64,000 nt of DNA from assembly GCF_026241855.1 (NCBI RefSeq), contig NZ_JAPJDC010000001.1, positions 930,001-994,000 of the forward strand, in the 5' to 3' direction. The stretch is from Curtobacterium flaccumfaciens pv. betae. Lineage in GTDB: Bacteria; Actinomycetota; Actinomycetes; Actinomycetales; Microbacteriaceae. Positions 45,249 through 54,003 of this stretch are shown in pieces. The first letter of the stretch is position 1. Every line of letters starts with the position of its first letter. The notes beneath the pieces were generated by a model, which did not search any database, was not told the origin of the DNA, and saw only the letters and a list, made by a program, of their open reading frames with translations. The position numbers were made by a program, and so were the translations under genes.

Positions 45249-46262
45249 TCAGCGGGGGAGCAGGGTGCGGCCGGGGATCACGGTGCCGCGCAGTGAGCGG
45301 TGCTCGACCGGGCGCGTGGGGTCGTCGATGCGGCCGATGACCAGGTCGATGGCCTCGCGGCCGATGCGCTCGATCGGTTGTTCGAGTGTCGTGAAGCCGA
45401 TCCAGTCGCTCGCCAGCGGGTAGACGCCGTCGAACCCGGTGACGGAGAGATCGCGCGGGACCTCGACACCGCGGCGGGCCAGCGCCTCGCACACGTCGAG
45501 CATGAGCCGGTCGGTCGGGCACATCACCGCGGTCACGCCCGACTCCTGCACGGCGTCCACCAGGTCGGCGGCGAGGTCGTCGGGTGGCCGCACGAAGCTC
45601 GCGTCGATGTCGATCACCCGGACGCCACGTGCTCGGAGCCGCTCGAGCATCGCCGAGGATCGCGCGTGCTGCGTGATCGCGTTGTCGAGCGGGACGGTGA
45701 ACACCACGGCCGTGGTGTGGCCGGCATCGGCGACGGCATCCGCGATGGAAGCCCCACCGTCGACCTCGTCGCAGTAGACGCTCGAGAGCGCCGGGTGCAG
45801 CTCGGGCCGACCCGCGACGACGGTGGCGATGCGGGGCGCGAACTCGGCGATGTCGGCGGACGGCATCAGGCCACTGCACACGACGAGGCCGTCGACGCGC
45901 ATCGACACCAGTGCGGCGAGGGCGGACTTCTCGTCCTCGACCCGACCGACGCCCGTCGTGGTGACGACGCGGTAGCCGAGCTCCGATGCGCGGCGCTCCA
46001 TCACGGCGTGCAGTGCGGTGTAGACCATGGACGAGGCGTCCCGGACGAGCATCCCGATCGTGTTCGTGCGCCCGCTGACCAGTCCGCGAGCCATCGCGTT
46101 CGCGACGTACCCGAGCTCGGCTGCCGCTCGTTCGACGCGTTCGCGGGTCTCGTCCGAGAACCGGCCTGTGCCGGAGAGCACGCGGCTCACCGCCGACTTC
46201 GAGACCCCCGCACGTGCGGCGACGTCGAGGATCGTCGGCTGGGAACCGCGGCTGCCGTTCAC
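45249..46262 (-). CDS. LacI family transcriptional regulator
   Basis: The 337-residue repressor has the LacI helix-turn-helix and hinge at residues 10-65 (TILDVAARAGVSKSAVSRVLSG, then AELGYVANAMARGL) and a periplasmic-binding-protein-like sensor domain. The ligand is unknown. Its GTG at 46262 overlaps the stop of the DUF3054 gene. A LacI-type palindrome at 48120-48131, in front of the importer operon 2 kb away, is a candidate target; no copy of it was seen near this gene's own promoter region. Confidence 0.93.
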   Translation of the reverse strand: MNGSRGSQPTILDVAARAGVSKSAVSRVLSGTGRFSDETRERVERAAAELGYVANAMARGLVSGRTNTIGMLVRDASSMVYTALHAVMERRASELGYRVVTTTGVGRVEDEKSALAALVSMRVDGLVVCSGLMPSADIAEFAPRIATVVAGRPELHPALSSVYCDEVDGGASIADAVADAGHTTAVVFTVPLDNAITQHARSSAMLERLRARGVRVIDIDASFVRPPDDLAADLVDAVQESGVTAVMCPTDRLMLDVCEALARRGVEVPRDLSVTGFDGVYPLASDWIGFTTLEQPIERIGREAIDLVIGRIDDPTRPVEHRSLRGTVIPGRTLLPR

Positions 46263-46681
46263 GCTTCGGACGCTGCGGCGTCCCGTCGCGACCGCGACGC
46301 GGTGAACCGGAGCACGCCGCGGGCGATCGCGCGCCAGCCGAGCAGGAACACCCCGAGCACGATCGTCGCGACGATGACGAACGAGATCGGCAGCGGGTTG
46401 CCGTCGACGTCACCCTGGCCGGTGGCGACGCGGATGGCCAGACCGACGAAGACCGTGAGGATCCAGACCACGATGCCGGTCGGCCAGAAGCGCAGCGGTC
46501 GAGCCCAGGCCCCGCTCGTCACGTACCCGATCGCCCAACCGGTCAGGAACGGGTACGCGGTGGTCCAGAGCGCCAGCGCCGTGTTGGCCTCACCGTGCGA
46601 CGAGCGCCCGATGAGTGCGAAGACGACGATGAGGACGACGTCGATGACGGCTGCGAGCCAACCCCAGGTGCGTGCGTTCAC
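46259..46681 (-). CDS. DUF3054 family small membrane protein
   Basis: About 140 residues with four membrane helices and the DUF3054 marks VIDVVLIVVFALIGRSSHG and the later FWPTGIVVWILTVFVGLAIR. Function is unknown. The start is uncertain. GTG at 46681 fits the usual family N-terminus; ATG at 46717 would add 12 residues but its GGAGGA lies too close to be a good ribosome site. Coupled to the LacI gene by a 4-bp overlap. Confidence 0.82.
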   Translation of the reverse strand: MNARTWGWLAAVIDVVLIVVFALIGRSSHGEANTALALWTTAYPFLTGWAIGYVTSGAWARPLRFWPTGIVVWILTVFVGLAIRVATGQGDVDGNPLPISFVIVATIVLGVFLLGWRAIARGVLRFTASRSRRDAAASEA

Positions 46682-46806
46682 CCGCTCATTCTCGCAGGCC
46701 CCCGACTGCTCGCTCATTCCTCCACAAGGTGTTCGGCGGGGCTGGCCCTCCACAGCACGCCCACGCGGTGCTGCTCCGTAGGCGGAGGATCCGGAGCATC
46801 ACCAGT

Positions 46807-47757
46807 ATGTCGATGAACCTCAAGCTCGCACCGGTCCCCGAAGTCCTCACGTTCCGAACGTCCGCTCAGCGCCCCGACGAGTCCGATGTCATCAGACGTC
46901 GGGCGGCTGCGGGGGAGCTCACACGGGTAGCACGCGGACTGTACGTGGAGTCTGCGGGATGGGCCGCACTCCGCCCCAGCGAGCAGCACCACGTCCGGCT
47001 GCGCTCGTTCGCTGACCGGATCCGCCCCGGAGACCTGATCTCACACGTCTCCGCTGCCGTCGTCTTCGGTGTGCCCCTGCTCACCCCACCACCGACACGG
47101 ATCCACGTGACCTCACGCGGTGCCGACCGGCGCACCACGAACGCGACCTTCGTGGTGCACGCCGACCTCGATGCTGAACGGAACGAGCGTCCGGTCGCCA
47201 CGCCCGACGGGTTGCTGTTGTGCGGACTCGATCGGCTGGCGACCGACCTCGCACTCACACTGCCGTTCACCGACGCGGTCGTGTCCCTCGATGCGCTCCT
47301 CCGTCGCGAGGTCGAGCGCGAAGACGTCCGGTCGGCGATCGAGCGGCGTGGGCAGAAAGGACGACGTCGCGCTCTCCGGGCGATCGGGTTCGCCGATGCC
47401 GCATCGGACTCACCGGGGGAGTCGTACGCACGAGCGCGGTTCGACCAGTTCGGGACACGACCGCCGGTCCTCCAGCACCGCTTCCGAGCGCTCGGCGAGC
47501 CGGACATCGTCGTGGACTTCTGGTTCCCGGATGCCGGGGTCGTGGTCGAGTTCGACGGAGCCGTGAAGTACCGGAGCAGTGCGTACCTGCGGGGACGGAC
47601 GCCGGAGGAAGCGCTGTTCGACGAGAAGGTCCGGGAAGACCGGCTCCGCGCGTTCCCCGAGGTGCGAACCGTGGTGCGGCTCACCTGGTCGGACCTGCGC
47701 AACGAGTGGGTCCTCCGCGCGAAGCTCCGCCAGGCCGGAGTCCGTATGTCGCGCTGA
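46807..47757 (+). CDS. AbiEi-type antitoxin-domain protein with DUF559 nuclease-like C-terminus
   Basis: The 316-residue protein begins with a winged-helix AbiEi-like antitoxin region (VIRRRAAAGELTRVARGLYV, then LISHVSAAVVFGVPL) and ends in a DUF559/Vsr-like PD-(D/E)xK fold. Candidate catalytic residues are Glu205, Asp237, Glu248 and Lys254 (VVDFWF, VVVEFDGAVKY). No AbiEii nucleotidyltransferase toxin lies next to it, so it is not a standard two-gene toxin-antitoxin pair. Such proteins are often multi-copy in Microbacteriaceae; function is unclear. The ATG at 46807 has a GGAG site at 46792. Confidence 0.85.
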   Translation: MSMNLKLAPVPEVLTFRTSAQRPDESDVIRRRAAAGELTRVARGLYVESAGWAALRPSEQHHVRLRSFADRIRPGDLISHVSAAVVFGVPLLTPPPTRIHVTSRGADRRTTNATFVVHADLDAERNERPVATPDGLLLCGLDRLATDLALTLPFTDAVVSLDALLRREVEREDVRSAIERRGQKGRRRALRAIGFADAASDSPGESYARARFDQFGTRPPVLQHRFRALGEPDIVVDFWFPDAGVVVEFDGAVKYRSSAYLRGRTPEEALFDEKVREDRLRAFPEVRTVVRLTWSDLRNEWVLRAKLRQAGVRMSR

Positions 47758-48041
47758 GGGGTGTAAGTAGCGCACCGTGCGAGATTGTTCGGCCTCTTGC
47801 CGGTGCGCACGGTGCGCGGTTCGTCGCCCATCGCGGACCTGGCTGCTCGGTGCGGGGTCGTCGACAGCGAACCGGGCCGCGCACCGTGCATCGTTCGCCG
47901 GTCGGGGGCGAGCAGCCCGCTCGGTGCAGGGTTGTAGCCGGGCACGAAGCCGTCAACCTCGCACGGGTCGGCGGAACTCGCACCGTGCGCCGTCACCGCA
48001 TCCGACGCGCAGCACCGCGCCCGCGCCCGCGCCCCGCACGC
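47758..48041. repeat. Intergenic block of degenerate family A repeats
   Basis: No gene is seen. The stretch is full of GCACCGTGCG, CTCGGTGC and CCTCGCAC words in both orientations. It includes GCTCGGTGCAGGGTTGTAG, which resembles the loop side of the 45.0-kb copy. Pairing is less regular than at 23.9 or 45.0 kb. Confidence 0.7.
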
Positions 48042-48096
48042 CTGCACCCGGAGTTCACCCGGCGGCGACGCCGGAGGCACCCGGAGTTCACCCGGC
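48042..48096 (+). promoter_or_regulatory. Two PHO-box-like direct repeats upstream of the importer operon
   Basis: GTTCACCCGGC occurs exactly at 48053-48063 and 48086-48096, 33 bp apart. Each is preceded 11 bp upstream by a weaker unit (CTGCACCCGGA, AGGCACCCGGA). The 11-bp period and the sequence resemble the direct-repeat units bound by Streptomyces PhoP (G, G/T, TCA, YYY, R, G/C, G). Binding here is inferred. Confidence 0.6.
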
Positions 48097-48119
48097 AGCA
48101 CCACACTCGACCCCGGCGC

Positions 48120-48131
48120 GGGAACGTTCCC
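48120..48131. promoter_or_regulatory. LacI-type operator palindrome
   Basis: GGGAACGTTCCC is a perfect 12-bp palindrome with the central CG usual for LacI-family operators. It sits 104 bp before the solute-binding protein GTG and 23 bp after the second PHO-like repeat. Confidence 0.55.
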
Positions 48132-48138
48132 ACACGAC

Positions 48139-48212
48139 CCGCCCGGACGACCCCGCACACCCGCACGACCCCGCACGACCCCGCACACCCCCACCCCGCA
48201 CGACCCCACCGC
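48139..48212. repeat. CGCACGACCCC microrepeat in the operon leader
   Basis: Repeated CGCACGACCCC and CGCACACCC words make an almost G-poor, pyrimidine-rich leader just before the GGGAGAA ribosome site. Confidence 0.75.
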
Positions 48213-48235
48213 ACCACGGAACAGGGAGAACCCAC

Positions 48236-49390
48236 GTGAAGACCCGAGTCCTCGCCGGCCTCGCCATCGCGGCAGCCGCGACCGTCGCACTCTCCGGCTG
48301 CGTCCAGAGCGCCAACGCCTCGGACGCCTCCGACACCGACGGCACCACCGACCTCACCGTGTTCATCAGCGGCGACACCAACGTCCAGGACCTCTGGGAC
48401 AAGTCGCTCATCCCCGCCTTCGAGAAGGCGAACTCGAAGATCCACGTCAGCACGAGCATCGACCTGCACGGCGAGCACGACGCCCAGACCCAGGCGAACC
48501 TCGCCACCGCGGTCAAGGCCGGCAAGTCCGTCGCGTACGACCTCGTCGACGCCGGCTTCGTCACCACCGCCGGCAAGGCCGGGCTGATGGCGAAGGTCGG
48601 CGACAGCACGATTCCGAACCTCAAGGACGTCCCGGACGCCACGAAGCAGCAGGGCGGCGACAGCGCCATCCCGTACCGCGCTTCGAGCGTGCTGCTGGCG
48701 TACGACGCGAAGAAGGTCACGGACCCGCCGAAGACCCTCGACGACCTGCTCGCCTGGATCAAGGCCAACCCGGGCGAGTTCGCCTACAACTCCCCGTCGT
48801 CCGGCGGTTCGGGTGGCTCGTTCGTGGCCACGGTGCTCGCGAAGTACCTGACGCCCGCCGAGCAGGAGACGATGCAGACGAAGTACGACAAGTCGCTCGA
48901 GTCGAAGTGGGTCAAGGGCTTCGCGGCCCTGAAGGACCTCGGCCCGTCGACGTACCAGAAGGGCGTCTACCCGAACGGCAACGACCAGGTCGTGCAGCTG
49001 CTCGGCAGTGGCCAGATCGCGATGGCCCCGGTCTGGAGCGACCAGTTCATCACCTCGCAGAAGACCGGCATCATCCCGAAGACCGTCAAGGCCGTGCAGA
49101 TCGACGACCCGTCGTTCACCGGCAGCGCGAGCTTCCTCGGCATCCCCAAGACCGAGCCGAAGGCCAAGAAGGCGGCGGCCGAGAAGCTCGCCGACTTCGT
49201 GCTCAGCGCGAAGGGGCAGCAGCTCGTCGCGAGCGCCGTCTCCGGCTACCCGGTGATCCCGCTCGACAGCCTGCCGGCGTCGGTCGCCGAGCAGTTCGCC
49301 GACGCGAACCCCTCGCAGCTCCGCCTCGGGTTCCAGAGCGACTTCGCCGCGGACATGAACGCGGCGTGGGACGCGAAGGTCCCGCAGTGA
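48236..49390 (+). CDS. ABC transporter solute-binding lipoprotein (YnjB-like)
   Basis: The 384-residue protein has a lipoprotein signal with lipobox LSGC (Cys22) and a two-lobed binding fold. Segments such as PPKTLDDLLAWIKANPGEFAYNSPSSGGSGGSFV resemble the family 1-like binding protein YnjB, whose ligand is unsettled. It would catch the solute outside the membrane for the two permeases that follow. The GTG at 48236 follows GGGAGAA. Its stop overlaps the first permease GTG. The ligand is inferred from the last gene of the operon to be a phosphodiester, not from this sequence. Confidence 0.9.
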   Translation: MKTRVLAGLAIAAAATVALSGCVQSANASDASDTDGTTDLTVFISGDTNVQDLWDKSLIPAFEKANSKIHVSTSIDLHGEHDAQTQANLATAVKAGKSVAYDLVDAGFVTTAGKAGLMAKVGDSTIPNLKDVPDATKQQGGDSAIPYRASSVLLAYDAKKVTDPPKTLDDLLAWIKANPGEFAYNSPSSGGSGGSFVATVLAKYLTPAEQETMQTKYDKSLESKWVKGFAALKDLGPSTYQKGVYPNGNDQVVQLLGSGQIAMAPVWSDQFITSQKTGIIPKTVKAVQIDDPSFTGSASFLGIPKTEPKAKKAAAEKLADFVLSAKGQQLVASAVSGYPVIPLDSLPASVAEQFADANPSQLRLGFQSDFAADMNAAWDAKVPQ

Positions 49391-50421
49391 CCCAGACCGT
49401 CCAGGACGGCCCGGCAACCGGCCGGGAGGCCCGTGGCGACTCCGCCACGGGCCTCCCGCCCGTCCCGCCCCACGCCCAGGGCCCGGCGCACCCCGCCATC
49501 GGGCGCACGGCGCAGGAGCGGCTGGCCCGCCGCCGGCGGTGGCAGGGCCTCGCCCTCGTCGCCGCCCCGGTGCTGGTCGTCGTCCTGTTCGTCGGCGTCC
49601 CGGTGGTGAACGCCGCCCTGTTCAGCCTCGGGTTCACCGGTGGCCTGAACCAGGCGCTCGCCGACATCGGCGGCGACACCGTGCGCGGTTTCTCGTTCGC
49701 GGTCTACGCCACCCTGCTCGGCAACGCCACGTTCCTGCGTGACCTGGTCGCGACGCTCGGCGTCACCGCACTGTCGACCGGCCTGACCGTGGGGCTCGCC
49801 GTCGTCGTCGCGGTGATCCTGCGACTCCGCGGAGGCTTCCTCGGCAAGACCCTCAGTGTCCTGGCCGTGGTACCGATCTTCGTGCCGGTGGTCATCGCGA
49901 GCTGGTCCATCCTGACGTTCACCGACGCGCAGGGGTTCCTCCGGAGCCTCGGTGCCCAGTTCGGCCTCGACGTCCCGGTGTGGGGCTACACCCTCGTCGC
50001 CGTGGTGTTCGGCAGCGTCTGGACCAGCCTGCCGTTCGCGGTGCTCATGATCGCCGGGGCGCTGCAGGGCACACCGGACGCCCTGGTCGAGGCCGCGAAG
50101 GACGCCGGGGCGAGCACCTGGCGCGTCGTCTGGCAGGTGCTCCTGCCGATGGCCGCGACCCCGCTCGTCATCGCGACGACGTTCACCGTGATCGGGGTCC
50201 TCGGTTCGTTCACCGTGCCGTACTTCACCGGTCCGAACGCCCCGACGATGCTCGGCGTCGACATCTCGAAGTACTTCCAGGCCTACAACCGTCCACAGCA
50301 GTCGACGGCGATGGCGTTCATCGTGTTCGCGTTCGCCGCGGCCGCGAGCATCTTCTACCTCCGCTCGACGGTCCGCTCGAACGCGGGCGAGCTCGACAAG
50401 AAGCAGCAGGAGCAGCAGTGA
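49387..50421 (+). CDS. ABC importer permease 1
   Basis: The 344-residue permease has six membrane helices and the cytoplasmic EAA loop EAAKDAGASTWRVVWQVLLP, which docks on the ATPase. The first ~45 residues are a polar linker. Codons for residues 13-24 (GREARGDSATGLPP) are formed by an in-frame palindrome, 49423-49458, nearly identical to the intergenic element at 22.35 kb. The GTG at 49387 overlaps the preceding stop. Confidence 0.92.
   Translation: MTQTVQDGPATGREARGDSATGLPPVPPHAQGPAHPAIGRTAQERLARRRRWQGLALVAAPVLVVVLFVGVPVVNAALFSLGFTGGLNQALADIGGDTVRGFSFAVYATLLGNATFLRDLVATLGVTALSTGLTVGLAVVVAVILRLRGGFLGKTLSVLAVVPIFVPVVIASWSILTFTDAQGFLRSLGAQFGLDVPVWGYTLVAVVFGSVWTSLPFAVLMIAGALQGTPDALVEAAKDAGASTWRVVWQVLLPMAATPLVIATTFTVIGVLGSFTVPYFTGPNAPTMLGVDISKYFQAYNRPQQSTAMAFIVFAFAAAASIFYLRSTVRSNAGELDKKQQEQQ
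49423..49458. repeat. Palindrome family B, copy inside the permease gene
   Basis: Arms 49423-49438 and 49443-49458 pair perfectly (CGGGAGGCCCGTGGCG). Thirty-five of 36 bases equal the core of the element at 22350-22397. Confidence 0.9.
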
Positions 50422-51230
50422 TCAAGCGTCTGACCGGCAACGCCCTCGTCTGGGCGACCGCGATCGTGCTGGCCGTGTTCATCCTCGGGCCGCTCGTCTG
50501 GCTGGCCGCCCGTGCCTTCGCCACGACGTGGACCTACCCGAACCTGCTGCCCGACGGCTGGACCCTGCAATGGTGGGGCACCGTGTTCGAGGACCGCAGC
50601 CTGGCCGTCGCGGTGCAGAACTCGCTCGTCCTCGCCCCGCTCACGGTCCTCATCGCCGCGGTGGTCTGCCTGCCCGCCGCGTGGGCGATCAGCCGCATCG
50701 AGTTCCCGGGGCGGCGGCTCGTGCTCGTCGGACTGTTCGCCACGAACGCGTTCCCGAAGATGGGCCTCTTCGTCACGATGTCGGCGATGTTCACCGCGCT
50801 GAACCTCATGAACACGGTCACCGGCATCCTGATCGTCCACGTCCTGGGCTGCGTCGTGTTCATGACGTGGTTGCCCGCCGCAGCCTTCTCGGCAGTGCCG
50901 CGGTCCCTCGAGGAAGCCGCCCGCGATGCCGGGGCGAGCCGCTGGCGCACCTTCTGGAAGGTGACGTTCCCGATCGCCTGGCCCGGGATCCTCGTCGCGA
51001 TGGTGATGTCGTTCCTGGCGTCCTTCGACGAGGCGCAGGGCACGTACCTGGTCGGCGCCCCGACGTACATGACGATGCCGACGGCGATGTACTCGCTCGT
51101 CCTGAACTCCCCGCGCCAGGTCTCGGCGGTGTTCGCGATCGCGTTGAGCATCCCGTCCGTGGTCCTGCTGCTGCTCGCCCGGAAGCACATCATGGGCGGC
51201 CGCCTGGCGGACGGCTTCCAGATCCGATGA
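50418..51230 (+). CDS. ABC importer permease 2
   Basis: The 270-residue second permease has six helices and the EAA loop EEAARDAGASRWRTFWKVTFP. It pairs with permease 1 to form the channel. The start is GTG at 50418 in a 4-bp overlap with the previous stop. A second start at the ATG of the next gene overlaps its own stop, so the whole operon is translationally coupled. Confidence 0.92.
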   Translation: MIKRLTGNALVWATAIVLAVFILGPLVWLAARAFATTWTYPNLLPDGWTLQWWGTVFEDRSLAVAVQNSLVLAPLTVLIAAVVCLPAAWAISRIEFPGRRLVLVGLFATNAFPKMGLFVTMSAMFTALNLMNTVTGILIVHVLGCVVFMTWLPAAAFSAVPRSLEEAARDAGASRWRTFWKVTFPIAWPGILVAMVMSFLASFDEAQGTYLVGAPTYMTMPTAMYSLVLNSPRQVSAVFAIALSIPSVVLLLLARKHIMGGRLADGFQIR

Positions 51231-51256
51231 CCCACACCAGCACGAAAGGCGACCAG

Positions 51257-52333
51257 ATGACGGACAAGGCGCTCGTCGCAGAACGCGCACCGGGCCTCCA
51301 GGCCGACGGCAGCACGGCGGACCGGACCCGCTCCGGCGGACTCACCATCCGCGGACTGCGCAAGACGCTCGGCGGACGCGACGTCGTCGCCGGCATCGAC
51401 CTCGACGTCGCGAAGGGCGAGCTCGTCTCGCTCCTCGGCCCGTCCGGCTGCGGCAAGACCACGACGCTCCGCATGGTGGCGGGGTTCCTGCCCGCCGACG
51501 GCGGCGTCGTGACCATGGGGGACCGCGACGTCACGTCGCTCGGCCCGGAGCGCCGGCCGAGCGCGATGGTGTTCCAGAACTACGCGCTCTGGCCGCACAT
51601 GACGGTGACGCAGAACGTCGCGTTCCCGCTGCGGACCCGACGGGTGCCGAAGCAGCGGGTCGCCGAGCGGGTGCGCGACGCGCTCGAGCTCGTCGGCCTG
51701 AGCCACCACGCCGGCTCGAAGCCGACCGCGATCTCGGGCGGCGAGCAGCAGCGCGTCGCCCTGGCCCGCGCCATCGTGCAGGAGCCGGACGTCCTGCTCC
51801 TCGACGAGCCGCTGTCGAACCTCGACGCGAAGCTCCGCGTGAGCGTCCGCGACGAGATCCGCCGCATCCAGCAGCGACTCGGCATCACGACCGTGATCGT
51901 CACGCACGACCAGGACGAAGCGCTCAGTATCTCCGACCGGATCGCCGTCATGCACGACGGCCGCATCGAGCAGATCGCGACACCGACCGAGCTCTACGCC
52001 CGCCCCGCCACGAGCTTCGTCGCGTCGTTCATCGGGTCGACGAGCGTCGTCACCGGCCGGTTCCTCGCCGGCACCTCGGTCGGCCCGACGGCGGCCGACA
52101 CGGTGCTGGTCCGCCCCGAGCAGGTCGTGCTCACCGACGACTCGCCGATCCGTGCGACGGTCGCGCGGGTGCTCATGCGCGGGCACTTCGCCGAGGTCGT
52201 GCTCAGCACCGACGGCGCGGAGCTCCGCGCCTACGTCACCGGGCCGCCGCCGGCGGTCGGCACCGAGACCGGGGTGCGCCTGGGCGAGGTGCTCGTCCAC
52301 CGCGACGGCGTGCTGCTCGAGGTCGCCCGATGA
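51257..52333 (+). CDS. ABC importer ATPase with C-terminal TOBE domain
   Basis: The 358-residue ATPase has Walker A GPSGCGKTTT, signature ISGGEQQRVALARA, Walker B VLLLDEPLSNLD and the switch His in VTHDQDEAL. After residue 240 a TOBE-like regulatory part follows (TVLVRPEQVVLTDD). It is of the CUT1/spermidine/iron importer type. The ATG at 51257 has GAAAGG just before. ATG at 51227, overlapping the permease stop, would add 10 residues. The head contains a CCGGGCCTCCAGGCC fragment of repeat family B (51290-51304). Confidence 0.93.
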   Translation: MTDKALVAERAPGLQADGSTADRTRSGGLTIRGLRKTLGGRDVVAGIDLDVAKGELVSLLGPSGCGKTTTLRMVAGFLPADGGVVTMGDRDVTSLGPERRPSAMVFQNYALWPHMTVTQNVAFPLRTRRVPKQRVAERVRDALELVGLSHHAGSKPTAISGGEQQRVALARAIVQEPDVLLLDEPLSNLDAKLRVSVRDEIRRIQQRLGITTVIVTHDQDEALSISDRIAVMHDGRIEQIATPTELYARPATSFVASFIGSTSVVTGRFLAGTSVGPTAADTVLVRPEQVVLTDDSPIRATVARVLMRGHFAEVVLSTDGAELRAYVTGPPPAVGTETGVRLGEVLVHRDGVLLEVAR

Positions 52334-53943
52334 GCGCGGGGGCTTCGACGTCCACGGCTTCGGCTGCGGCTGCGCCTGCGGTCGATCGTGTGGTCTCGAC
52401 CAGCGCGGACGCCAGGCCCGGCGTGCGTCCGCCACGCCTCGTCGCCCACCGCGGTGCGCCGCGCGTCCGGCGCGAGAACACGCTGCCCGCCATCGCGGTC
52501 GCCGAGGCGCTCGGCGCCGAGGTGATCGAGGTCGACGTCCGTCGCACCGCCGACGGCGTCGCCGTCCTGCTGCACGACGAGACCCTCGGCCGGATGTGGG
52601 GCGATGCCCGCCGGGTGTCCGACGTCGACTGGTGCGACGTCGCCCGGCTCGGCAACGGCCTCGACCGGATCCCGCGGCTCGACGGTGCGCTCGAACGGCT
52701 CGACGGCTGCCGGTCGACCCTGCTCGTCGACCTGACCGACGCCGAGGACGCCCTGGTCGCCGCCCGCACCGTCGCGGGCTTCACCGGCTCCACCGCGGTG
52801 GCCTGGTGCGGGGCACCGGCGGCGATGGCGGCCGTCCGCTCCGTGCTGCCCGACGCCGACGTCTGGCTGGCGTGGGAGTCGCTCGATCCGCCCGTCGCCG
52901 CGGACCTCGAGGCGCTCGAGCCGTCGACGCTCAACCTCGACGTCGCGTTCCTCACCCCGCGCACCGTCGAGGTCGCACACGCCCTGGGCCTGCGCGTCGC
53001 CGTCTGGACCATCGACGACGTCGAGCCCGCCATCTGGGCAGCCCGGCTCGGTGTCGACTCGATCACCACGAACGACGTCGGGTCCATCGGGGCAGCCCTG
53101 TCGGCGGCCGAGCGCGACGGCTGGCCCGAGCGCGACCGCGAGCCCACCGAGACCGAGGTCGCCTCGCGCGCCCAGGCCCTGGCCCACCGCATCGCCCACG
53201 AGGTCATCGCGTACACGCGCGAACACCCGGTCAGCGAGGTCCACACCAAGGCGAACCCCGCCGACCTGGTCACCGACGTCGACCGCCTGGTGGAGCAGCA
53301 CGTCCGCTCCCGCGTGCGGATGGTGTTCCCGACGCACGGGTTCACCGGCGAGGAGTACGGCGAGGCCCCCGGCGATCGGCACCGCTGGTTCCTGGACCCC
53401 GTCGACGGCACCACCAACCTGGCGAACGGCGTGCCCTGGACGTCGATGTCGCTCTGCCTGACCCGTGGCGGCCGCCCGCTCGTCGGCGTCGTCGCGGACC
53501 CCTGGCGCGGCGAGGTGCTCGAGGCCCGACGCGGCCGCGGCGCCACCCTGCGCGACCGCCAGCTCCGACTCGACGACACACCCCGGCCGCTCGCCGGCGC
53601 CGTCGTCGGCACCGAGCTCGACGGACACCGCCCGTGGCCGGGGTTCGGGGCGTTCCTCGACGCCCTGGCCGACCGGTCGTGCACGCTCCGGGTCCAGGGA
53701 TCGGGCACGTTGACGATCGCCCAGGTCGCGGCGGGGCGCGGGATCGGCGGCTGCGTCTCGGCGTTCAACCCGGTCGACCACGGCGCCGCGGTGCTGCTCG
53801 TGCACGAGGCCGGGGGCGTCGTGCTGACGCCGTCCGGCCCCGTGGAGGGCTTCCCGCCCGTGGGGGAGCCGTTCCTCGTGGCGCACCCGGGGGCCGCGGA
53901 CGAGCTGCACGCGGTGTGGACGGCGGCGCTCGCCGCGGGGTGA
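52330..53943 (+). CDS. Fusion of glycerophosphodiester phosphodiesterase and inositol monophosphatase domains
   Basis: The 537-residue protein joins two complete hydrolase domains. Residues 35-258 are a GDPD domain with His40-Arg41, Glu49-Asn-Thr, Glu67, Asp69 and His82. Residues 275-535 are an inositol-monophosphatase domain with Asp312/Asp316 (NPADLVTDVD), Glu341-Glu342, the metal site D356-PVDGTTN and Asp483 (NPVDHGAA). GDPD enzymes split glycerophosphodiesters; IMPase-type enzymes remove phosphate from inositol phosphate and related polyol phosphates. There is no signal peptide, so both steps occur inside the cell after import. The ATG at 52330 overlaps the ATPase stop. The joint order suggests consecutive steps on one imported compound. 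Confidence 0.9.
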   Translation: MSAGASTSTASAAAAPAVDRVVSTSADARPGVRPPRLVAHRGAPRVRRENTLPAIAVAEALGAEVIEVDVRRTADGVAVLLHDETLGRMWGDARRVSDVDWCDVARLGNGLDRIPRLDGALERLDGCRSTLLVDLTDAEDALVAARTVAGFTGSTAVAWCGAPAAMAAVRSVLPDADVWLAWESLDPPVAADLEALEPSTLNLDVAFLTPRTVEVAHALGLRVAVWTIDDVEPAIWAARLGVDSITTNDVGSIGAALSAAERDGWPERDREPTETEVASRAQALAHRIAHEVIAYTREHPVSEVHTKANPADLVTDVDRLVEQHVRSRVRMVFPTHGFTGEEYGEAPGDRHRWFLDPVDGTTNLANGVPWTSMSLCLTRGGRPLVGVVADPWRGEVLEARRGRGATLRDRQLRLDDTPRPLAGAVVGTELDGHRPWPGFGAFLDALADRSCTLRVQGSGTLTIAQVAAGRGIGGCVSAFNPVDHGAAVLLVHEAGGVVLTPSGPVEGFPPVGEPFLVAHPGAADELHAVWTAALAAG

Positions 53944-53959
53944 GCTGCGGCGCACGGTG

Positions 53960-54003
53960 CGGACTGGAGGCACGGTGCCAGCCCGGCACGCGCCTCCCGG
54001 CCG
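53960..54003. repeat. Palindrome family B, copy after the operon
   Basis: CGGACTGGAGGCACGGTGCC faces GGCACGCGCCTCCCGGCCG across a short loop; several mismatches remain. It lies just after the operon stop and may act as its terminator. Confidence 0.65.

Follow-up and report, generated by a model that had tools for sequence, protein, structure and literature searches.

Candidate operon for uptake and breakdown of glycerophosphoinositol in Curtobacterium and freshwater Nanopelagicaceae

We analysed a five-gene operon from Curtobacterium flaccumfaciens pv. betae that may import and break down a glycerophosphodiester. The window (the whole 64,000-nucleotide stretch of DNA that we analysed, C1:930001-994000) lies within a 3.78 Mb genome. 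Five genes on its + strand, at 48236-53943, each overlap the next by 4 bases; they encode a solute-binding lipoprotein (SBP), two permeases, an ATPase, and a fusion of a glycerophosphodiester phosphodiesterase (GDPD) to an inositol monophosphatase (IMPase). A first-pass annotation had described these five overlapping genes, and both the coordinates and the Pfam matches agree with it (Table 1). It had also described repeats and a palindrome upstream of the operon, and it had guessed that the cargo is glycerophosphoinositol.

Table 1. The operon, its control region and the linked regulator, in window coordinates
Feature	Position	Strand	Basis or remark
LacI-family regulator, predicted palindrome binder	45249..46262	-	linked to transporter loci
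PHO-type boxes, 11-bp register: CTGCACC / GTTCACC / GGCGACG / AGGCACC / GTTCACC	48042..48096	+	kept in all 15 operon promoters
-10-like hexamer CACACT	48102..48107	+	starts exactly 9 nt past the last heptamer
Palindrome GCGGGAACGTTCCCAC, LacI-type operator candidate	48118..48133		just past the -10-like element; core in 15 of 15 promoters
Solute-binding lipoprotein (SBP)	48236..49390	+	SBP_bac_8; signal peptide with LSGC lipobox, judged by eye
ABC permease 1	49387..50421	+	BPD_transp_1
ABC permease 2	50418..51230	+	BPD_transp_1
ABC ATPase	51227..52333	+	ABC_tran with TOBE_2 domain
GDPD (residues 40-251) - IMPase (276-517) fusion	52330..53943	+	Pfam: GDPD, then Inositol_P

Both halves of the fusion score above the Pfam gathering thresholds (104.8 bits against 23.6 for GDPD, PF03009; 142.5 bits against 27 for Inositol_P, PF00459). 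The His, Arg, Glu, Glu-x-Asp and His that we take to be the catalytic residues of GDPDs are conserved in 40-44 of the 44 members, and the GEE and DPxDGT motifs and the terminal Asp of the IMPase half, presumably its metal site, are kept in 42-44 of 44. Against the SuhB/IMPA inositol-1-phosphatase equivalog, the protein reaches 103.1 of the 332 bits required. In two genomes of one Microbacteriaceae genus (L166 from G360 and L167 from G304), the GDPD and the IMPase are separate overlapping genes within the same operon. Because the GDPD residues are kept and the split genes still share an operon, both activities appear to be selected together. We could not see a signal peptide on the fusion by eye, so we read it as cytoplasmic. 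Its name varies by source: it is called inositol monophosphatase, glycerophosphodiester phosphodiesterase, or "deoxyribonuclease-2." The window's protein is 98% identical to its counterpart in C. flaccumfaciens LMG 3645.

A pattern-based scan of genome contigs identified 47 loci with relatives of the fusion; 38 were close (L013-L050), and nine distant ones were set aside. Among the 38 close loci, all from Curtobacterium, the four transporter genes lie immediately ahead of the fusion in 15 and are not there in 22; one (L049) starts inside the fusion and could not be judged. More broadly, the SBP had matches in 55 of 398 Microbacteriaceae genomes, including 27 close matches (E < 1e-120) in eight genera, Curtobacterium among them. 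We fetched 20 of these 27 loci (19 from outside Curtobacterium), and all 20 have the gene order SBP, permease, permease, ATPase, GDPD-IMPase. The GDPD-IMPase is a single complete frame in 17 of them, is cut by the end of a contig in one (L160), and is split into two overlapping genes in the two loci described above. This conservation of the operon in related genomes was one of the expectations of the first-pass annotation.

The operon also occurs in another family. In a sample of 394 genomes from the class, the whole fusion (E < 1e-100) was found in its own genome, in one other member of the Microbacteriaceae, and in six members of a family with genomes of 1.3-1.9 Mb. By protein search, close relatives belong to Candidatus Planktophila and Candidatus Nanopelagicaceae, which we take to be freshwater acI actinobacteria. 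The fusion is present in 28 of 296 Nanopelagicaceae genomes. Of these 28 loci we read 18; one (L203) is cut by its contig, and the 17 complete ones all have the five-gene order; in L232, also from this family, the fusion is split over two frames. Homologues of the fusion were named from Arthrobacter, Sinomonas, and Propionibacterium as well.

The transporter is not claimed by any Ugp, Pot, or Phn model at its cut-off. The highest-scoring curated model for the ATPase is the 2-aminoethylphosphonate transport ATPase PhnT2 (TIGR03265, 339.1 bits against a cut-off of 457.7), yet both the ATPase and the SBP fall short of the PhnT2/PhnS systems (the SBP scores 20.9 of 310 against PRK15046, a model of 2-aminoethylphosphonate SBPs). 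For Ugp, the operon has the expected linked GDPD, and its ATPase and permeases are below the curated cut-offs (UgpC, 320.8 of 432 bits; UgpA, 41 of 335; UgpE, 32.6 of 297); no Ugp model was among the matches of the SBP. The polyamine models fare no better (PotA, 312.6 of 355.6 and 324 of 482; PotC, 92 of 326; PotB, 45.6 of 348). In an alignment with HitA, the SBP has D and Q opposite the paired tyrosines of ferric-binding proteins.

The region upstream of the SBP carries exact copies of GTTCACCCGGC at 48053-48063 and 48086-48096, and nowhere else in the window. Each is preceded, 11 bp ahead, by a weaker unit (CTGCACCCGGA at 48042 and AGGCACCCGGA at 48075), so that the copies form a 23-nt direct repeat that is 96% identical at a spacing of 33 bp. 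This is the arrangement that the first-pass annotation had described. The operon promoter thus has the sequence signature of the PHO regulon, which is repeats in an 11-bp register that match GTTCACC. By itself the 11-mer GTTCACCCGGC is no rarity: the genome has 19 exact copies of it, and 1 of the reversed pattern. We therefore tested its conservation instead.

We compared 15 operon promoters: the window and 14 other loci (L015 was left out because its contig ends before the promoter). The inner box element is GTTCA, 32 bp before the palindrome, in all 15, and the outer element, 65 bp before the palindrome, is GTTCA in 13 and ATTCA in 2. The weaker unit that precedes the second box is mostly kept; the one preceding the first box is poorly conserved. 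Conservation is concentrated between -70 and +16 relative to the palindrome: 57 of the 86 columns in this interval have the same base in 13 or more of the 15 promoters, as against 1 of the 80 columns before it and 1 of the 44 after it. The start codon lies at a variable distance past the palindrome, 56 to 168 bp. In all 15 promoters, a hexamer whose second base is A and whose sixth is T begins 9 nt past the last heptamer; the background for such hexamers in the window is 1.9% per position. It is this conserved arrangement of the boxes, and not the bare 11-mer, that exceeds chance.

The same arrangement precedes phosphate genes elsewhere in the genome. The pattern GTTCACCNNNNGTTCACC has a single exact genomic match, 254 bp before the pstS match (whose score, 203.4, is slightly below the cut-off of 205); allowing up to 2 mismatches gives 58 matches, against 2 for the reversed pattern. 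The phoU gene (173.8 bits, above its cut-off) is preceded by GTTCAGC-CGTCACC-GTTCACC. In all three promoters a gap of 9 nt leads to the hexamer: TACAGT for pstS (after GGTCACC), GACACT for phoU, and CACACT for the operon. The idea, raised in the first-pass annotation, that pstS, phoU, and glpQ might share the box therefore holds for the first two genes. For the glpQ-like gene, which is the second GDPD gene of the genome, it holds in part: there is one good heptamer, GGTCACC, followed by 9 nt, the -10-like TAGGGT, 6 nt, and ATG, but the preceding unit (GGTGCCC) is weak.

Scanning the genome with a three-unit box at up to 3 mismatches gave 22 matches, against 0 for the reversed control. Five of the 22, including phoU, have the hexamer in register at 9 nt (pstS is not counted because its last unit is different), and one of the five lies upstream of a gene with a metallophosphoesterase domain. 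Three-unit candidates were seen before genes with a HupE/UreJ domain (L097), a lamin-tail domain (L102), and a metallophosphoesterase domain (L116), and before a gene of the histidine phosphatase family (L106, where the hexamer lacks T at position 6). Two further matches, C1:707106 (L098) and C1:1284637 (L099), are identical over 29 nt and are followed by identical hexamers, which suggests a repeated element rather than promoters.

The fusion genes without the transporter have a three-unit box of their own, with a best score of 14-20 out of 21 in 22 loci. In 19 of these loci the score exceeds 16, the maximum over 200 letter shuffles per locus, with a consensus that was drawn from the same sites. 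A hexamer of the same form as in the operons, and in the same register, is present in 21 of the 22, and in 16 of the 22 (among L021-L048) the ATG follows the hexamer by 6 nt. This looks like leaderless transcription under PHO control.

Relative to shuffled sequences, PHO-type boxes were significant (p ≤ 0.05) in 14 of 14 Curtobacterium promoters and in 14 of 19 promoters from other Microbacteriaceae; one of the latter 14, L168, lacks the -10-like hexamer. We consider it very probable that the operon is controlled by low phosphate in Curtobacterium, and phosphate control is likely in several relatives within the Microbacteriaceae. The protein that binds the boxes would be PhoP. The resulting promoter grammar for Curtobacterium (boxes, 9 nt, -10) is testable.

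The palindrome had been described as LacI-type, and it is indeed present, with a core (GGGAACGTTCCC at 48120-48131) that is kept in all 15 operon promoters. With at most 1 mismatch, this promoter is the sole site in the genome for GCGGGAACGTTCCCGC. A homologue of the LacI-family gene in Table 1 was found at 14 of 14 transporter loci with enough flanking sequence and at none of the 22 assessable loci that lack the transporter; the DUF3054 gene that lies beside it occurs in both groups. In C. ammoniigenes, the LacI gene immediately precedes that of the SBP, in the same orientation. At the level of sequence, then, the operon has both a linked LacI gene and a conserved operator-like palindrome, as expected for LacI-regulated operons, and we infer that this LacI protein represses it.

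Genes for inositol catabolism (iol) offer another line of evidence. In the Nanopelagicaceae, iolB (TIGR04378; 77 matches, 67 of them above the cut-off) was found in 18 of 28 genomes with the fusion and in 59 of 268 genomes without it (p = 8e-6). Among Microbacteriaceae genomes picked from the SBP search, it was found in 20 of 27 with the operon and 11 of 29 without (p = 0.008). Both p values are overstated because related genomes are not independent. Eight of the 18 Nanopelagicaceae genomes with both genes, spread over three genera, have iolB and the fusion on one contig and less than 10 kb apart; independent placement predicts 0.23 such genomes. At all eight of these loci, the nearest same-strand gene before the SBP is iolE-like (adjacent in six, with one opposite-strand gene between in two), and iolB and an iolD-like gene are divergent from the operon; an iolC-like gene is present at four. 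Curated models for iolB, iolC, and iolD, where tested on L215, L217, and L228, scored above their cut-offs; the iolE-like genes of these loci scored 138-150 of the required 290 bits. In one member of the Microbacteriaceae (G227), the operon is preceded by iolC, iolB, iolD, and iolE-like genes in the same orientation, and a regulator that by eye looks GntR-like lies in between. The iolD-like gene beside the G227 operon (L217:13274-15736) is in two frames, due to a frameshift or a sequencing error. The presence of iol genes beside the operon in 9 genomes lends independent support to the earlier guess of glycerophosphoinositol.

The following model builds on what we observed directly: the order and domains of the genes, their conserved catalytic residues, the conservation of the promoter, the linked LacI gene, and the inositol genes nearby. 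At low phosphate, PhoP would bind the boxes in their 11-bp register, which end 9 nt before the -10-like element, and activate transcription. The linked LacI protein, sitting on the palindrome, would keep the operon off in the absence of an inducer, which is likely inositol or the diester. As predicted from the protein families, the lipoprotein would pass the diester to an importer made of two permeases and one ATPase. The GDPD half would then cleave the diester, and the IMPase half would remove the phosphate from the resulting monoester. The monoester could be either glycerol-3-phosphate or inositol-1-phosphate; in both cases the overall yield would be inositol, glycerol, and phosphate. Where inositol-catabolism genes exist, the released inositol would be burned.

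That the cargo is a glycerophosphodiester of some kind seems quite probable. We favour glycerophosphoinositol in particular, and its splitting in the cytoplasm to inositol, glycerol, and phosphate, at somewhat better than even odds; we chose it over a general diester mainly because the iol neighbourhood recurs in four genera from two families. Our fullest reading, to which we give a probability of roughly 0.5, is that this is a dedicated unit for the uptake and stripping of glycerophosphoinositol, found from the Microbacteriaceae, where the PHO boxes point to use as a phosphorus source, to the streamlined freshwater Nanopelagicaceae, where several genomes would use it as a carbon source via inositol catabolism, and that the phosphatase half has traded its contact to inositol for another monoester. 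Several observations weigh against our favoured explanation. In all 44 IMPase halves, the canonical inositol-contact glutamate is replaced by I, V, or T. There are no iol neighbours at any of the 38 Curtobacterium loci, at 19 of the 20 fetched Microbacteriaceae loci, or in 20 of the 28 Nanopelagicaceae genomes with the fusion (many of these assemblies are fragmented). In the Nanopelagicaceae, no PHO-type box stood out before iolE at any of the 8 iol-linked loci, and just 1 of 5 promoters had such a box before the SBP.

The loss of the glutamate and the scarcity of iol neighbours in the Microbacteriaceae would fit a broad scavenger, whose importer takes glycerophosphoglycerol, -ethanolamine, -choline, and -inositol alike, so that inositol is one product of several. 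GDPDs generally free glycerol-3-phosphate from glycerophosphodiesters (PMC7866108), and in such a scheme the GDPD half would do so for each diester and the IMPase half would convert it to glycerol and phosphate. The fusion also occurs without this transporter at 22 of 37 assessable Curtobacterium loci. However, broad scavenging leaves unexplained why an iolE-like gene is upstream of the SBP at all 8 iol-linked Nanopelagicaceae loci and why an iol cluster lies ahead of the operon in one Microbacteriaceae genome, and we view it as possible but clearly less likely than the dedicated unit. It seems improbable that the cargo is instead an inositol or sugar phosphate, as for AfuA, with the GDPD half being a separate housekeeping activity that was fused by chance: the catalytic residues of the GDPD are too widely kept, and where the GDPD and IMPase genes are split they still share the operon. 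Least probable of all is that the transporter imports a polyamine, ferric iron, or 2-aminoethylphosphonate and that its link to the fusion is incidental. Some databases do name the SBP as polyamine or spermidine/putrescine binding, the best scores of the ATPase are to PhnT2, PotA, and UgpC, and Foldseek places binders of iron, GABA, and other compounds high for the SBP. But all of the NCBIfam models are below their curated cut-offs, the ferric-type tyrosines are replaced, and the gene order with the fusion is kept at 20 of 20 Microbacteriaceae and 17 of 17 Nanopelagicaceae loci.

Compared to the dedicated unit that we favour, known systems share some of the parts. ABC import of glycerophosphodiesters together with a GDPD is known from E. 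coli (ugp with ugpQ) and from C. glutamicum (ugp with glpQ), where the ugp cluster responds to phosphate limitation (PMC7866108). As in Ugp, an importer for glycerophosphodiesters or glycerol-3-phosphate (here predicted) is encoded with a GDPD (PMC7866108). The operon departs from Ugp in its SBP, which is of the SBP_bac_8 family, in the fusion of its GDPD to an IMPase, in the candidate LacI-type operator, and in the iol genes that accompany it in some lineages. GpxB and UgpB of marine bacteria are likewise ABC importers for lipid-derived glycerol phosphates (glycerol-1/3-phosphate), but GpxB is a member of the phosphonate family (PhnT, 3.A.1.9), and neither "inositol monophosphatase" nor "GDPD" occurs in the main text of that study (PMC12718374). 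The PHO boxes of Streptomyces (pstS and glpQ genes) are also 11-nt direct repeats, with GDPD genes as PhoP targets; the PhoP-dependent GDPDs, as that source outlines them, are secreted and are not clustered with an importer (PMC7866108), in contrast to the fusion, in which no signal peptide is visible and whose gene overlaps those of the importer. Another actinobacterial LacI-type regulator tied to inositol is IpsA, which controls the formation of inositol-derived lipids in corynebacteria; it differs in genus and targets, and we compared it by its description only (PMC3899939).

Relative to Ugp-like uptake, what is new is the unclaimed transporter, the fused two-step enzyme, the LacI-type operator candidate, and the inositol genes in some lineages. 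In the literature that we searched, which did not cover most subscription journals, we found no described system with this exact composition, as the first-pass annotation had supposed, and no bacterial route that imports deacylated inositol lipids whole. Plants, fungi, and algae plausibly supply organic phosphorus in the form of deacylated inositol lipids; Curtobacterium is known from leaves, and the Nanopelagicaceae are among the most numerous freshwater bacteria. If our proposal is correct, then the operon names a bacterial import route for these compounds, assigns a role to the variously named fusion enzyme, and links Curtobacterium and the freshwater Nanopelagicaceae by one uptake system.

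Some neighbouring features were also seen. In three or more Nanopelagicaceae genomes, a protein of 283-296 amino acids from an unknown family is encoded next to the SBP (between the iolE-like gene and the SBP in L228 and L229, and also at L225:4855-5742), whether or not iol genes are close by, and it is a possible further operon partner. In the window, a gene at 46672-47757, between the DUF3054 gene and the SBP, has a weak match to AbiEi_4 that is below the cut-off; its homologues (50-95% identity) are at the same spot in some Curtobacterium loci and missing from others. Finally, short palindromes of the GCGCACCGTGCG / CGCACGGTGCGC type recur in the intergenic sequence on both flanks of the operon (47770-47990 and 53950-53980), looking like a dispersed intergenic repeat.

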